Of a stretch of 64,000 nt of DNA, positions 23,007-45,299 are shown one piece after another; position 1 is the stretch's first letter; each line of letters begins with the position of its first letter. The notes beneath the pieces were generated by a model that saw nothing but the letters and a program-made list of their open reading frames with translations, did no database searches and was not told the DNA's origin. Source of the DNA: Gemmatimonadota bacterium (lineage in GTDB: Bacteria > Gemmatimonadota > Gemmatimonadetes > Gemmatimonadales > Gemmatimonadaceae). The position numbers and the translations under genes were made by a program. The stretch lies in NCBI GenBank assembly GCA_021299375.1, contig JAJTGR010000033.1:1-64000 (forward strand), read 5' to 3'.

Positions 23007-23552
23007 TCACACCGCCCGGTTGAGGAGAATGCCGCGTCCGGCCACGCTCGTCGGGGGAGCCTGGCCCTCCGCGACATAGGTGGACGGCAGGCTCGGGCTG
23101 CCCACCAGCGTGCGCACATGCTGGTCGGTGGCCGTCAGCGCTTCGCGCAGCAGCTTGCGATTCATGCCCACTTCGCGTGTCAGCACGTCGGCGGCCTGCT
23201 GCAGGCGCGACCGGGCCTCACGGACACGGTCGTCGACGAGATCGCCGAGCAGGTCCTCGAGTTCGCGGAGGGTGCAATCCTCGGAGCCGCCGAGCAGCAC
23301 GTTGAGCTGGCGGCGCCGCTGCCGGGCCTGGCCGAGCGTGGCGAGGATGCGATGGGTCGCGAAGGTGCTGTCGTCGACACCCTGGATATCGTCGGCGCCG
23401 ACTGCCTCGCGTTGGCGCCGCATCTGCGCGATGAGGTCGTCGAGCAGCCGTCGCTCGCTGATCAGCGCGTCATGCAGGGCGTTGAGCAGCGCCGCCGATG
23501 GCAACGCGACGCGAGGCGCGGTTTCCTGGTATGGCGTGGTCGTCGGCAACAT
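23007..23552 (-). CDS. flgN: FlgN-like export chaperone
   Basis: A 181-residue, mostly helical protein (LLNALHDALISERRLLDDLIAQMRRQRE, RQLNVLLGG, VGMNRKLLREALTATDQHVRTLV) with the length and helix pattern of FlgN, the cytoplasmic chaperone for FlgK and FlgL. Sequence identity of this family is always low, and the assignment rests on helix pattern and on its place directly before flgK. The ATG at 23552 overlaps the flgJ stop. Confidence 0.8.
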   Translation of the reverse strand: MLPTTTPYQETAPRVALPSAALLNALHDALISERRLLDDLIAQMRRQREAVGADDIQGVDDSTFATHRILATLGQARQRRRQLNVLLGGSEDCTLRELEDLLGDLVDDRVREARSRLQQAADVLTREVGMNRKLLREALTATDQHVRTLVGSPSLPSTYVAEGQAPPTSVAGRGILLNRAV

Positions 23553-23893
23553 CAGCGGGGGGAGGAGTCGGAGTCCAACGGGGCTGCGGCGACCGGGAGC
23601 CGGCCGCGCAACTGGCGATAGAGGGCTTCGGAGAGACCGCCACCCCAATGGCTGGGAGTTTCGGCCGCAAGGTGCTGATCCATGAGGCCCGTGAACATGT
23701 CTTCGCCGGCCCCCCCGGAAACAATGCCTTCCCCCTGCGGAACGGTCTCGCGCATGGCCTTGTAGAGCTGCTGGACGAACACCCCCTCGAGCTGTCTGGC
23801 ACTCTCGCGGAGCGAGCGCTCCTGCGGCGTACGGTCCTGTGCCGCGGGGCGGCTCACGCCTGTCACGGGGCGGGACATGATGGGGTCGCTCAT
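23552..23893 (-). CDS. flgJ: Rod-binding protein FlgJ, single-domain form
   Basis: A 113-residue protein matching only the N-terminal rod-scaffold domain of FlgJ: ARQLEGVFVQQLYKAMRETVP, then a Gly/Glu-rich loop and DMFTGLMDQHLAAE. In enteric bacteria FlgJ is about 313 residues with a C-terminal glucosaminidase that opens the cell wall for the rod; that domain is absent here. In other bacteria with short FlgJ a separate hydrolase does the job. The start ATG overlaps the flgI stop (ATGA). Confidence 0.92.
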   Translation of the reverse strand: MSDPIMSRPVTGVSRPAAQDRTPQERSLRESARQLEGVFVQQLYKAMRETVPQGEGIVSGGAGEDMFTGLMDQHLAAETPSHWGGGLSEALYRQLRGRLPVAAAPLDSDSSPR

Positions 23894-35900: not shown

Positions 35901-37784
35901 CTACTTGAAGCTCTGGACCAGGCTCGTGATGGTGAGGCTCCAGCCGTCCACGAGCACGAACAGCAGCAATTTGAAGGGCAACGAGATCATGGCCGGCGGC
36001 AGCATCATCATGCCCATGCTCATGAGCACCGACGCCACAACGGCGTCGATGATGATGAACGGCAGGTAGATCGCAAAGCCGATCTGAAAGGCCGTGCGCA
36101 GTTCGCTGGCCACGAATGCCGACATGAGCACGTGCAGCGGTACGTCGTCGACGGTGGCGGGGCGCGGCATGCGGCTCATCTCGACGAACGCCTTGAGGTC
36201 CGCCTCGCGCGTCTGCCTGAGCATGAACGTGCGCATGGGTTGCACGCCGGTCTTCATCATCTCGACCTGCGTGATCTTGCCGTCGAGCCACGGCGTGATG
36301 GCGGTGCGATTGACTTCGCTGAGCGTGGGGCCCATGACGAAGCCGGTGAGCAGCAGCGCCATGCCGGCGAGCAACTGGCCCGGGGGCGCACTTTGCGTAC
36401 CCATGGCCTGCTTGAGAAAGTGCAGCACGATCAGGATGCGGGTGAAGCCCGTCATCATGAGCAGCAGCGTGGGGAGCAGGGTGAGCAGCCCCATCATGAC
36501 CACAATGCCCACGGTGCCGTTCAGGCGCAGCCCTTCGCCCTCGCCGTTGCCGCCCAGCTTCACGTCCATCTGCGGCATCATGCGCATGATGGCGTCGTCG
36601 GCGGCAATCGGGGCCGCCGCCGCGGCCTGGGCGTTCTGGTTCGCGCGCGCCATCGAATCGAGCTGCATGCGATTCGTCTCGCGCCGGGTGGCGGTGCCCT
36701 GCGTGTTCAGCTGGGCGCCGTTGCCGGGACGCGGTGCGGGGGCCTGCGTGGCGGTGCCGGGTGTTGCGGGACGCGCCGTGCGCATGGCCGATGCGTTGGG
36801 GGCTCCGGCAGCGGGCACCGGGCGCTGCGGTGCGGCCGGCGGAACGGGCGCGACCGGCGGCGACAGCACGGGCGATGCCGGGGGCTGGACCGCCGGCGCT
36901 GCGGGCGGCTGCACGACCGGCGGTGCACCGACGGCGGGGCCTGTCCCGGTTCCCGTGCCCTGCGCATGCAGCGACGGGCTGCCGATCAGCAGCATGGCGC
37001 CGGCCAGCACCGCCAGCCGGGTGGCCCCACTCAACGACACGCCAAGCAGGCTCCGGAAGTCACGATCGGCACCGTGGGGCGCCACCGGGCCGGCGCTGCG
37101 TCGGGCCCTGGCGAGGGGGCCATAGGTCACCGCGGCCCCGCGGCTCGTCGTCAGCGGGGCCGTCAGGAACGACGGCACTTCGGCCGCTTCGGTGAGCGAG
37201 AGCGGGGGGATCGCCGTCACCGTCTGGGACGGCATCGGTGCCGGCGCCAGCGGGGTCGTCGCTGGTGCGGCCAGCGTCACCGGGGCATCCGTCACCGGGG
37301 CATCCGTCACCGGGGCATCCGTCACCGGGGCTTCCGTCACCGGGGCGACGGCGTCTGCCGTCGATGCCAGCGGTGGCGAGGCCGGTCTGACCGTACCGAG
37401 CGAGCGGCTGAGCAAGCCACCGAAGGTGGTCCCGAACGCCATCGGCGAGAGCGGAGCGAACGCGGCTGCCGCCTCGCTGCTGGACGGCACGGGCAGCGGC
37501 ACGTGACTGGTGGCGATCACACGCTGGCGGTCGGCCTCGTCGAGCTCGAAGAGCGGCCGCACGCCCCCATCGCCAACCGACACGGCCATGACCTTGTCGC
37601 CGACGCGCACAACCGCCAGGCCGGTCTTGGGGCCCAGCGGCACCCGCTGCACGACCTCCACGGCCACGCGGGTGCGCGGTCGCAGCGGACCGGCTCCCCA
37701 GCGCTTGAGGGCCCACAGGCACACGGCACCGAGCCCCAGCACGAAGGCCAGGGCCGCCACGACACTCAGCCCAGCGGTCACCAT
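35901..37784 (-). CDS. fliP: Fused FliO-FliP flagellar export protein
   Basis: One open frame of 627 residues joins two export proteins. Residues 1-90 match FliO: one transmembrane helix, then VEVVQRVPLGPKTGLAVVRVGDKVMAVSVGDGG. A Pro/Ala/Thr-rich linker with four VTxAP repeats follows. Residues about 249-277 look like a signal peptide (VSLSGATRLAVLAGAMLLI to SPSLHAQG), then another Pro-rich stretch. Residues about 400-627 are a full FliP (GLLTLLPTLLLMMTGFTRI, MRTFMLRQTREADLKAFVEM, PFKLLLFVLVDGW). A GTG at 37040 (Val249) could start a separate FliP, so one or two products are possible. Last gene of the fliL unit. Confidence 0.9.
   Translation of the reverse strand: MVTAGLSVVAALAFVLGLGAVCLWALKRWGAGPLRPRTRVAVEVVQRVPLGPKTGLAVVRVGDKVMAVSVGDGGVRPLFELDEADRQRVIATSHVPLPVPSSSEAAAAFAPLSPMAFGTTFGGLLSRSLGTVRPASPPLASTADAVAPVTEAPVTDAPVTDAPVTDAPVTLAAPATTPLAPAPMPSQTVTAIPPLSLTEAAEVPSFLTAPLTTSRGAAVTYGPLARARRSAGPVAPHGADRDFRSLLGVSLSGATRLAVLAGAMLLIGSPSLHAQGTGTGTGPAVGAPPVVQPPAAPAVQPPASPVLSPPVAPVPPAAPQRPVPAAGAPNASAMRTARPATPGTATQAPAPRPGNGAQLNTQGTATRRETNRMQLDSMARANQNAQAAAAAPIAADDAIMRMMPQMDVKLGGNGEGEGLRLNGTVGIVVMMGLLTLLPTLLLMMTGFTRILIVLHFLKQAMGTQSAPPGQLLAGMALLLTGFVMGPTLSEVNRTAITPWLDGKITQVEMMKTGVQPMRTFMLRQTREADLKAFVEMSRMPRPATVDDVPLHVLMSAFVASELRTAFQIGFAIYLPFIIIDAVVASVLMSMGMMMLPPAMISLPFKLLLFVLVDGWSLTITSLVQSFK
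37275..37346 (-). repeat. In-frame 15-base tandem repeat in fliOP
   Basis: About four to five copies of a 15-base unit (plus strand GGGGCATCCGTCACC) encode repeated APVTD/E pentapeptides in the FliO-FliP linker (residues 147-170). Copy number could vary by slippage without breaking the frame. Confidence 0.85.
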
Positions 37785-41722: not shown

Positions 41723-42520
41723 TCAGGCGCGGATCTGGGTGAGTTGCGACATCGGGACGCTGATGCTGTCGCCGATCAGCAGGATGGGATTGCCGTCTTG
41801 GTACCGCATGCCGGTGATCCGTCCGGCGGTGTATGTCGTGGCCGCGACATACGGATTGCCATCCTTGGCAACCTCGAACTTGAACGTGTACTTCCCGGGC
41901 TTGAGCGGTGGGTCCCACTTATAGTCACCCACGTCGAATGCCTGCTGGCCCTGCTTCACCGGGCCGACGAGGGCCTGGCCGACGGTGGCTCCGGTGCTGT
42001 CGATCATGGTGATGCGCCCCGTGCCCGTGAGGCTCCCGGTGTTGACCATGATGGTGCCGGTGCCATCGCGATCGACGAAGGCGTTGTTGCCGGCCGTCAC
42101 GCCGATCTTGCCGACCGTGGCCATGGCCATCTGTCCTTCGATGAGCGTGGCGAGTTCATCGGCGCGCTGGTTCTGCGTCTCCTGCAGCGACTCGATGGCG
42201 TCGGTCATCTGGGCGGCCGCCGCCTTCTGCTCATCGATCGACTTGTTCATCGTGATGAGCTGCTCGACGGTGGAGAACTGGGCGAGCTGCGCTGCCATGT
42301 CCTTGCCGTCCATCGGGTTGAGCGGGTCCTGATTCTTGAGCTGGGCGACGAGCATCTTGAGGAACTCGTCGCGGCCCATGGCCGACGGATTGGTGGGTAG
42401 CGTGCGCGGCGCGGAGGGTTCGGCCGCTCCCTTGGGTGGCTCGGTGGCCGCGACCGACGGTGTCGTGGTCGTGGTGTCGAACCGGGCGTTGCCGAACGCG
42501 TTGCGAACGGAGGTGACCAT
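41723..42520 (-). CDS. flgD: Hook cap protein FlgD
   Basis: A 265-residue hook-assembly scaffold. The conserved FLKMLVAQLKNQDPLNPMDGKDMAAQLAQFSTVEQL segment is FlgD-specific, followed by Ig-like and Tudor-like C-terminal parts (PLKPGKYTFKFEVAKDGNPY). The ATG overlaps the fliK stop (ATGA), which fixes the start. Confidence 0.95.
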   Translation of the reverse strand: MVTSVRNAFGNARFDTTTTTPSVAATEPPKGAAEPSAPRTLPTNPSAMGRDEFLKMLVAQLKNQDPLNPMDGKDMAAQLAQFSTVEQLITMNKSIDEQKAAAAQMTDAIESLQETQNQRADELATLIEGQMAMATVGKIGVTAGNNAFVDRDGTGTIMVNTGSLTGTGRITMIDSTGATVGQALVGPVKQGQQAFDVGDYKWDPPLKPGKYTFKFEVAKDGNPYVAATTYTAGRITGMRYQDGNPILLIGDSISVPMSQLTQIRA

Positions 42521-44559
42521 CACTCGACTCCGAAGGTGGAGGTAACGCGGCGCTGGTGCTCCTGCCGCTCGTTGCGGTCCTGCTGCTGCTGCTGCTGGCG
42601 TTCGTCGCGAGCTCGGGCGGCTTGCTCGCGCCGTGACTCGTCCTGCTGCCACTCGCGGGCCGGCGCGCGTTCGCGCTGACTGTTGCCGGCGGCACCATCC
42701 TGGGTGCCCGAAGGCGGCGCACCACCGATCTTCAGCGCTTCGCGCTCGCCTGCCGCCACGCGTCCGATCTCCACGGTGTCCTGCGGCTTGCTGGCGCCGA
42801 CGCGCAGACGCTCGCTCTCGAGTCCGTGACGGCCGAGGGCGTCCTGCAGGTCGGCCGAGCGCATGCGGATGCGCTCGGCGGTCGCGGCGTCGGTCGTGAT
42901 CTGGGTGGTCACGGTGTTGCCGCGCACATCAACCGTGATGGTTTCCTGGGTACCGTTTGCGTTGTCGACGTTGAGCGTCATGCGGGAGAGCGGGCCGGCC
43001 GGCGCATCCGCCCGCATCTGCTGGATGTCGGCCACGCGCTCCGCCTGTACGCTGCCGGCGGGCGCACTGGCCGTGGCAACGCGCTCGGGGCTGGTGGTGG
43101 TGACGCCCGCGGTCCCGGTCAGGGCGCCAAAGGCGGGTGCCGTGGTGTCGTGCTGGTCGTGCCCACGCTGACGGCCGCCCTGGAGCGACGTGCCCCGCGC
43201 ATCGCGGTCGCCGCGGCCGAAGGCCTCTCCGTTGCCGTTCCCGGTATCGTTGGCGAGGCGTGTGGCCTGCTGCGGTGCCGTGTAGGCGGCCAGCCCGTTG
43301 GCGGTCGCGGTACCACCCTGCGTTGCGATACGCGCCGCGCCGGACGGTTCGGCCACACGGGCCACGCCCGCCACGCCGGCGACGCTGGCCACCTGCGCCA
43401 TGCCCGCGGCCGATGCGGTCGGTTCGGGGCGTGGAATCTGCCGGTCCACCTTGAGCGTCGCCGCAGCGGCGGGATCGACCGGTGCACCGTGTCCCGCCAG
43501 TTCGAGATGCCCGGGATCCTTCAGGCCGAGCGTGCGCAGCCCTTCCTCGCGCGCGATCCGCTGGAGGCGCGCAAAGCCCTGGGCGTTGTCCCACGACCCA
43601 TCGATCAACACATCGACCGCCTCGCCCCGGGTGTGCGCCGAATCGCGCGTCCAGGTCACGACTGGGCCACGGCGGCTCCGCCCCTGCTCGTAGAGCCAGT
43701 CCTGGCGCTCCTGCGAGCGGACCGTCTCCACGAGCGTTACGTCGTGGCCGTACTCGCGTTTCATACGGTCGATGACGCGTGCGACCTTGCCACGCAGTTC
43801 AGGGGCCACCGCGTCGAGATCGCGGACCGGGGTGGTGACATCCCCGCTGCGGGTCTCCGCGGTGGCGAGCGCCAGGGGGGTCGTGTTCCGTTCCAGCTGG
43901 CGCGCGGCCAACCGCGCACCGGCCGGTGACCCGGCCTGCGCCAGGATCGCGTCGAGCGCGGCGCGCACTTCGGCCCCGCGGGCGTCACCGATCGCCAACA
44001 GCTGTTCGATGGATGCGCCACGCTGCGAGGCGATATGCGCCAGCGCCTGGAGTGCCGCCCGGTCGTCGTGCGGCGCCGCTGGCGCCACTGCCGCCTGTGC
44101 CGGCGTACGCTCCGTGGAGGTCTCGCGCGCTCGGGCGTAGGCCAGGAGGTCGACCACGTCACCGGCAGGCCGGTCGTCCGTCGGACCGTCTACGTGGTCG
44201 GGTGACGCGCCGTCCACCGGCTGCGCGCTGGCGGTTAGGGCGCTCTGTGCGTTGGTACCGTCGGCCGAAGGCGTCGCGGCACCTGTCATGGGCGCTGCGT
44301 CCTGCAGCAGCCGATCGACGAGCGAGGCCGCCTCCTCGGGGAGTTGCTGCACCAGGTCCGTGCGCACCTGTTGCCCCATGGCGGCGAGGAGCGCCAGCAG
44401 GGCGGCGAACTCCGGGCGGGACGCGTCGGGCTTGCGATCCTTGTCCCGAATCGATTCGGCGTCGGTGTCCACCGTCTCCCGGCGGGCCGCCGGCGCCGCC
44501 TTCGGGGCCGGCCGTGGCGCGGCCCTGGTGACGGCGTTCATGACATGCGCGGTGCTCAC
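42520..44559 (-). CDS. fliK: Hook-length control protein FliK with an embedded M15-type peptidase domain
   Basis: A 679-residue single frame. The N-terminal 250 residues are Ala/Gln-rich, as in FliK rulers. Residues about 252-356 read as an M15 LAS-type (VanY/CwlK/Ply500-like) peptidoglycan peptidase: VTLVETVRSQERQDWLYEQG, then SAHTRGEAVDV and KDPGHLEL. His309, Asp316 and His351 fit the zinc ligands and Asp348 the catalytic acid; spacings (H-x6-D and D-x2-H) equal those of Ply500. Residues about 522-590 match the FliK C-terminal domain that switches FlhB (LSRMTLNVDNANGTQETITV, LQDALGRHGLESERLRVG). The tail is Gln/Arg-rich. Position before flgD supports the FliK identity. The double role is inferred. 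Confidence 0.9.
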   Translation of the reverse strand: MSTAHVMNAVTRAAPRPAPKAAPAARRETVDTDAESIRDKDRKPDASRPEFAALLALLAAMGQQVRTDLVQQLPEEAASLVDRLLQDAAPMTGAATPSADGTNAQSALTASAQPVDGASPDHVDGPTDDRPAGDVVDLLAYARARETSTERTPAQAAVAPAAPHDDRAALQALAHIASQRGASIEQLLAIGDARGAEVRAALDAILAQAGSPAGARLAARQLERNTTPLALATAETRSGDVTTPVRDLDAVAPELRGKVARVIDRMKREYGHDVTLVETVRSQERQDWLYEQGRSRRGPVVTWTRDSAHTRGEAVDVLIDGSWDNAQGFARLQRIAREEGLRTLGLKDPGHLELAGHGAPVDPAAAATLKVDRQIPRPEPTASAAGMAQVASVAGVAGVARVAEPSGAARIATQGGTATANGLAAYTAPQQATRLANDTGNGNGEAFGRGDRDARGTSLQGGRQRGHDQHDTTAPAFGALTGTAGVTTTSPERVATASAPAGSVQAERVADIQQMRADAPAGPLSRMTLNVDNANGTQETITVDVRGNTVTTQITTDAATAERIRMRSADLQDALGRHGLESERLRVGASKPQDTVEIGRVAAGEREALKIGGAPPSGTQDGAAGNSQRERAPAREWQQDESRREQAARARDERQQQQQQDRNERQEHQRRVTSTFGVE

Positions 44560-45299
44560 GGCGTCTTGCTCCCCGCCGAGAGCACGGCGCCTCTGGTGAT
44601 GGCCGCCGCGCGGTTGGCGGGGAACGCCGACAGGATCGCCGCTGCCTGCTTGTCACTCATCATGGCGAGGATGGCGCGCACGTCGCCGTCGGTCATCTGG
44701 TCGAGCACCTTGGCGGCATCCTTGGCCGGCATGGCCGCGAAGATCTTCGCGAGGCGCTGCTCGGGGAGCACCGTCTGCAGCGCCGCATCCCGCGCTTCCT
44801 TCACGGTGGCCGCCGCGGCCGCCGTGCTACCCTTGGTCGGCGCGGGGGCCGCGTCCGGTTTGGTGGCCGGCGTCCCGCCTGCCGCACTCGACGTCGCCGC
44901 CATGCTGGCTACCGCGCTCGGGGGCGCCGCCTTCGTGGCGGCCGGACCCGGCGCCGCCTTGGGCTCGGGTTTCGGCGCCGCCTTCGTCCCGTGTTCCGCC
45001 GCCGGCGCCGTGTGCGCATCGGCAAGTCCCTTGCGCGCGGTCTCGAGCGCCCGCAGGCTGTCGGCGGGCGTCATCGGCAAGGCGGGTTCGTGGCCCGCGG
45101 CGTCGTGTGCCGTGGCGCTGCTGTCGTGGGCGGTGGAGTCACCGTGCGCGGTCGAATCTGCCGCGTGCGTGGCGAGGCTATCGGCAATTCGCGCAGAGTC
45201 GACGGCGAACTTTGCCGAGGCGCGCATGTACGCGTACCCCGATCCGCCGCCGAGACCGGCGAGCAGACCAATGGCGATGGGGATGATCAATGCTTTCAT
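44556..45299 (-). CDS. MotE-like flagellar protein with MgtE N-terminal-type domain
   Basis: A 247-residue protein with an N-terminal membrane helix (MKALIIPIAIGLLAGLGGG), a long Ala/Pro/His-rich middle (about 45-165), and a helical C-terminal domain (LPEQRLAKIFAAMPAKDAAKVLDQMTDGDVRAILAMM). The C-terminal domain resembles the MgtE intracellular domain of MotE/YlxF proteins found between fliJ and fliK. In other bacteria MotE acts as a MotC chaperone, but no motC is seen here, so the role is uncertain. It overlaps both neighbours by four bases. Confidence 0.8.
   Translation of the reverse strand: MKALIIPIAIGLLAGLGGGSGYAYMRASAKFAVDSARIADSLATHAADSTAHGDSTAHDSSATAHDAAGHEPALPMTPADSLRALETARKGLADAHTAPAAEHGTKAAPKPEPKAAPGPAATKAAPPSAVASMAATSSAAGGTPATKPDAAPAPTKGSTAAAAATVKEARDAALQTVLPEQRLAKIFAAMPAKDAAKVLDQMTDGDVRAILAMMSDKQAAAILSAFPANRAAAITRGAVLSAGSKTP

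Follow-up and report, generated by a model that had tools for sequence, protein, structure and literature searches.

The flagellar proteins closest to the one described here are Salmonella FliK, in which we know of no enzyme domain, and the wall enzymes that serve the rod. In bacteria other than the Gemmatimonadota, a phylum of soil and water, the rod gets through the wall with the help of a glucosaminidase carried by FlgJ or of flagellar lytic transglycosylases. The mesh of the wall is too narrow for the rod and is opened by FlgJ or by separate lytic enzymes, and FlgJ is a precedent for joining a wall enzyme to a flagellar protein that is exported (PMC8517470). In Salmonella, secretion of FliK goes on for as long as rod and hook are being built, and beta-lactamase fused to FliK was found to be active in the periplasm, mostly before the outer membrane is penetrated (PMC13344023). 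A further precedent comes from ChiX, a zinc L-Ala-D-Glu endopeptidase whose Asp120, in the motif D-x2-H123, is required for activity and for secretion (PMC5778951).

In this study, we show that a flagellar gene of a Gemmatimonadota bacterium, located in a window of 64,000 nucleotides (the whole stretch of DNA analysed), encodes a bona fide FliK, the ruler and secretion-switch protein, with an M15/LAS zinc endopeptidase domain built into it. A literature search, with most subscription journals outside its coverage, returned no paper on a peptidase in FliK, and we found no published description of an M15-bearing FliK.

The fliK gene and the architecture of its product

The fliK gene (42520..44559; all features given here lie on the reverse strand of the window) starts with GTG and encodes 679 amino acids. 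The gene order is fliI-fliJ-motE-like-fliK-flgD-flgE. The MotE-like (MgtE_N) gene (44556..45299) overlaps the fliK start in GTGA, and the start of the hook cap gene flgD (41723..42520) overlaps the fliK stop in TGATG. Pfam confirmed the identities of the neighbours fliI, fliJ, MgtE_N/MotE-like, flgD, flgE and flhA. Elsewhere in the window, FliO-like and FliP sequences appear by inspection to share a single frame of 627 aa (35901-37784), perhaps a fusion.

The C-terminal region (aa 503-590, 42790..43053) was identified as the T3S4 or FlhB-switch domain of FliK by Pfam Flg_hook (PF02120; E 1.2e-4, weaker than the curated cut-off), by a profile from 31 relatives and by fold. Among the top PDB matches of the full-length model are ChiX as well as 2rrl, the C-terminal domain of FliK, and 5cuk, the switch domain of PscP; a profile of the hook alignment gave chance matches only against PDB sequences, and it was the fold search that retrieved these structures. 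The genome has one hook-domain match, and this is the only FliK found in it, encoded in the hook-basal body operon and adjoining flgD/flgE. Export, hook-length control and switching of FlhB are its presumed roles.

From N- to C-terminus, the full-length model comprises helices, a confident M15 domain (246-357), a disordered linker, the fold at 503-590 and a C-terminal helix (aa 637-674, 42538..42651). The helical region preceding the M15 domain (aa 166-225, 43885..44064) is also seen in the consensus, and disordered linkers flank the M15 domain on both sides. The first-pass annotation had read this gene as a fliK carrying a peptidase domain between its N-terminal region and its switch domain, in one uninterrupted frame. 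The model bears out this order, the Flg_hook match, the 2rrl and 5cuk folds and synteny secure the FliK identity, and the frame is open throughout, with the same fusion recurring in 85 genomes of the phylum, far more often than chance would allow.

Within the linker that follows the M15 domain lies a (VAx)n triplet repeat (aa 390-404, 43348..43392), found at a median of 34 residues downstream of the domain. It occurs in 49 of the 52 aligned FliKs, whereas shuffling of the linkers would yield 0.1; as the sequences are related, these counts are not independent. Its presence goes with that of an intact M15 domain: it is absent from all 11 FliKs without the M15 domain, from the decayed FliK of one genome (G040, among the 52) and from 66 phage proteins.

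Fold, active site and selection of the M15 domain

The compact M15/LAS domain extends over aa 250-357 (43489..43812). All motifs on which the first-pass annotation had based its assignment, RSQERQDWLYEQG, SAHTRGEAVDV and KDPGHLEL, occur in the protein, and its four proposed active-site residues are in place: the zinc ligands H309 and D316 (HTRGEAVD, 43612..43635), and the catalytic acid D348 with the zinc ligand H351 (DPGH, 43507..43518). Among the 52 aligned FliKs, H309 is kept in 50 and D316, D348 and H351 in 51 each; G312, A314 and, in the RSxxRQ motif, R281 (43717..43719) are invariant. The exceptions are an H309Q replacement in one genome (G172) and the loss of all four residues in G040. 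The latter is a natural case of loss: its FliK (L064, contig C46) has 573 aa, a decayed M15 domain and no (VAx)n repeat, and the flagellar genes are retained. The survey of relatives that had been proposed found domain and residues conserved, apart from these two genomes and the M15-less groups f2 and f11, described below.

Membership in the M15 family had been expected to show in Pfam. This holds for 17 of 29 relatives, which match VanY, but not for the window protein, which on its own gave no M15 match. Against PHROGs, however, the window FliK matches endolysin families with E 5e-13 to 2e-12, within aa 246-394, and searching with a domain profile brings up Ply500 (2vo9; 1.4e-11) and LysB4 (2.8e-11). 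AlphaFold2 predicts the isolated domain with a pLDDT of 91.9, in a LAS fold that has the residues of the predicted zinc site rather than one missing them. The model superimposes on Ply500 with Z 13.0 (2.3 A, 106 residues), followed by LysB4 and LysECD7 (both Z 12.8) and ChiX (12.2), all of them entries titled endolysins or L-Ala-D-Glu endopeptidases, whereas VanXY, VanY and hedgehog domains rank lower (Z 9 to 10). The family match, the predicted LAS fold and the conserved His/Asp/His ligands with the catalytic acid place the domain in M15/LAS. We regard it as a predicted peptidoglycan endopeptidase and presume by similarity that the bond cut is L-Ala-D-Glu.

The FliK domains differ in some respects from those of phages. 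A WGG-type loop was found in 0 of 51 FliKs as against 49 of 69 phage or prophage M15 proteins; as the loop is not universal in the phage members either, this bears on specificity and not on family membership. D316 and H351 are separated by 34-35 residues in FliKs, and mostly by 39-58 in the M15 proteins of phages and prophages used for comparison. Because of this short spacing and the missing WGG-type motif, the cleft may differ from that of the phage members. In an M15 tree, built on few columns, the FliK domains stand apart from nearly all phage ones.

Strong purifying selection acts on the M15 domain, beyond that on the switch domain. In close pairs within the genus, the median amino acid identity is highest for the M15 domain (0.78), followed by the switch domain (0.67) and the remaining parts of the protein (0.40 and 0.35), and dN/dS amounts to 0.125, 0.29, and 0.49 and 0.47, respectively. 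With the highest identity and the lowest dN/dS, the M15 domain is therefore the most constrained part of FliK.

Distribution of M15-bearing FliKs and of flagellar wall enzymes

Taking FlhA-positive genomes as flagellated (108 of 395 genomes of the phylum) and requiring an E below 1e-20, an M15-FliK is found in 85 of the 108 FlhA-positive and in none of the 287 FlhA-negative genomes. Some 50 of these 85 were examined in full; nearly all have the hook domain in the same frame, and the exceptions end at a contig edge. Family f1 carries the M15-FliK in 71 of 74 genomes, the three others being G040 with its decayed domain, G170, whose FliK is cut off at the end of a contig, and G352, in which no FliK was found. 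Families f4, f5, f6 and f7 carry it as well. FliKs without the M15 domain were found in eight genomes of f2, a flagellated family of the same order as the carriers, and in three genomes of f11, a sister class. A fold like that of phage lysins has clearly been taken into a core flagellar protein here, in most flagellated families of a phylum.

A DNA pattern of the motif region, which covers M15 domains with the VTWT motif, was scanned over 84,980 species and returned 82 stretches. Those with a hook domain or with an M15 match above 120 bits all come from Gemmatimonadota, are unlabelled or belong to a probably mislabelled bin; the others are small stand-alone endolysin-type M15 proteins. Two apparent fusions from outside the phylum were rejected as probably mislabelled bins. 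In one, labelled Planctomycetota (L146), FlgD, FlgE and FliI are 61-64% identical to those of the window, and the M15 domain contains an in-frame stop; the other, labelled Kuenenia, Planctomycetota (L158), has Gemmatimonadota-like flagellar genes. Weak matches within the phylum (L052-L063, L065, L066) were likewise discarded as fusions, as they are stand-alone M15 proteins or chance frames with no hook domain. The phylum yielded no free, non-FliK copy with this type of motif. In viral contigs, the same pattern gave 66 sequences with an M15 match (L223-L288) and none with a hook domain. These viral proteins have the motif GRxxxGxxVTWT...SxHxxGxAxD, in which VTWT, a W variant, stands in place of the VTNA of Ply500 and LysB4.

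Concerning FlgJ, the window encodes a protein of 113 aa (23552..23893) in which Pfam detects a rod-binding domain (Rod-binding, 3e-15) and no other, and no wall hydrolase is fused to it. Every FlgJ examined from M15-FliK genomes likewise consists of the rod-binding domain only, and so do the FlgJs of f2. In f11, with its M15-less FliK, an SLT lytic transglycosylase domain is fused to FlgJ in 6 of 6 FlgJs. In these proteins (L094, L096, L100-L102, L109), SLT occupies the place of GH73 in Salmonella FlgJ. SLT genes outside the flagellar cluster were present in every M15-FliK and f2 genome searched, and no replacement wall enzyme was seen among the genes listed for the f2 flagellar cluster (gene starts and matches to window genes). 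Since f2 is flagellated with neither fusion, other wall enzymes can serve. Together with the site loss in G040, this indicates that the M15 domain is not indispensable in every lineage.

Proposed function, alternatives and comparison with known systems

We think it probable that M15-FliK carries a peptidoglycan endopeptidase out through the export channel of the flagellum while the rod is being assembled, and so opens the wall for the rod. Starting early in rod assembly, FliK would enter the type III channel of the flagellum in unfolded form. Copies reaching the periplasm while the rod is short would fold and bind zinc, and the folded domain would then cut peptidoglycan stem peptides at the tip of the rod and so clear its way through the wall. 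Later copies would exit via the hook, and their C-terminal domain would flip the export switch. Early FliK copies are proposed as the wall cutter of the rod because of the periplasmic activity of the FliK fusion, the narrow mesh of the wall and the precedent of ChiX. More tentatively, and with somewhat less than even confidence, we suggest that the flagellum of Gemmatimonadota has in FliK a wall-opening enzyme of its own, which would clear the path through the peptidoglycan and measure the length of rod and hook, so that wall penetration and the export switch would be coupled, the M15 domain and the (VAx)n repeat forming one module.

Other roles of the domain have to be considered. It might be folded and zinc-bound yet catalytically idle, as in Sonic hedgehog, which has the same fold, and act as a wall-binding anchor, a ruler spacer or an export brake. 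Hedgehog domains are indeed among the fold matches, the WGG loop is missing, ligands are altered in two genomes, and a slowly unfolding domain could slow FliK, whose slow export has been linked to switching. We nevertheless judge an idle module unlikely, as R281, the catalytic acid and the ligands are all conserved from family to family, the endopeptidases are the closest folds (Z 12-13 against 9 to 10 for hedgehog) and purifying selection on the domain is stronger than on the switch domain. If the enzyme is active, it could also work outside the cell: exported FliK exits through the growing hook, and once released it might digest foreign or shed peptidoglycan, in an antibacterial or nutritional role unrelated to rod passage. 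That phage endolysins are the closest folds and sequences would suit such a role. FliK is made in few copies, though, the domain is confined to flagellated genomes in a phylum with no free copy of the motif type found, and f11 puts its wall enzyme on FlgJ instead; an extracellular function thus appears decidedly improbable.

Proteins are an even more doubtful substrate. FliK might trim itself or a partner such as the rod cap, the hook cap or FlhB, and the Ala-Val repeat, which directly follows the domain and is missing from FliKs that lack it, speaks for this; against it, the nearest relatives that have been characterised cleave peptidoglycan at L-Ala-D-Glu bonds, and there is no sign of self-cleavage, which leaves this very unlikely. 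As most of the genomes are metagenome assemblies, an unrelated M15 gene might also have been joined to fliK by an error of prediction or assembly. An artefact or frameshift fusion was rejected, with next to no probability left to it, since one open frame runs across the domain in each of 85 genomes, some of them single-contig assemblies, and selection acts against amino acid change.

If wall opening by M15-FliK is correct, FliK would have a periplasmic role during rod growth, and the timing of wall opening relative to secretion would become genetically accessible in a culturable bacterium.

Compared with known systems, the window protein shares with Salmonella FliK, a hook-length ruler of the T3S4 type, the C-terminal switch fold (2rrl), synteny, single copy and disordered linkers, and differs from it by its enzyme domain. 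With Ply500, LysB4, LysECD7 and EndoT5-type enzymes (MEROPS M15C, LAS), it has in common the fold, the H-x6-D and H ligands, the acid of D-x2-H and the motif SxHxxGxAxD; these are stand-alone lysins, whereas the FliK domain is built into a flagellar protein and, lacking the WGG loop, is shorter than the phage endolysins. ChiX of Serratia marcescens is likewise a zinc endopeptidase of the LAS type that has been taken into service for bacterial secretion, but it is a separate, non-flagellar protein for chitinase release. Dual-domain FlgJ (GH73), FlgJ-SLT, SltF and LTaseBb (BB0259) are likewise dedicated to wall opening for the flagellum, in the case of FlgJ through fusion to a rod protein that is itself exported. 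The dedicated enzymes known so far are linked to FlgJ, the rod cap, and cleave glycan strands, whereas here a predicted cutter of peptide bonds resides in the ruler FliK, which would, if true, represent a second, independent solution.
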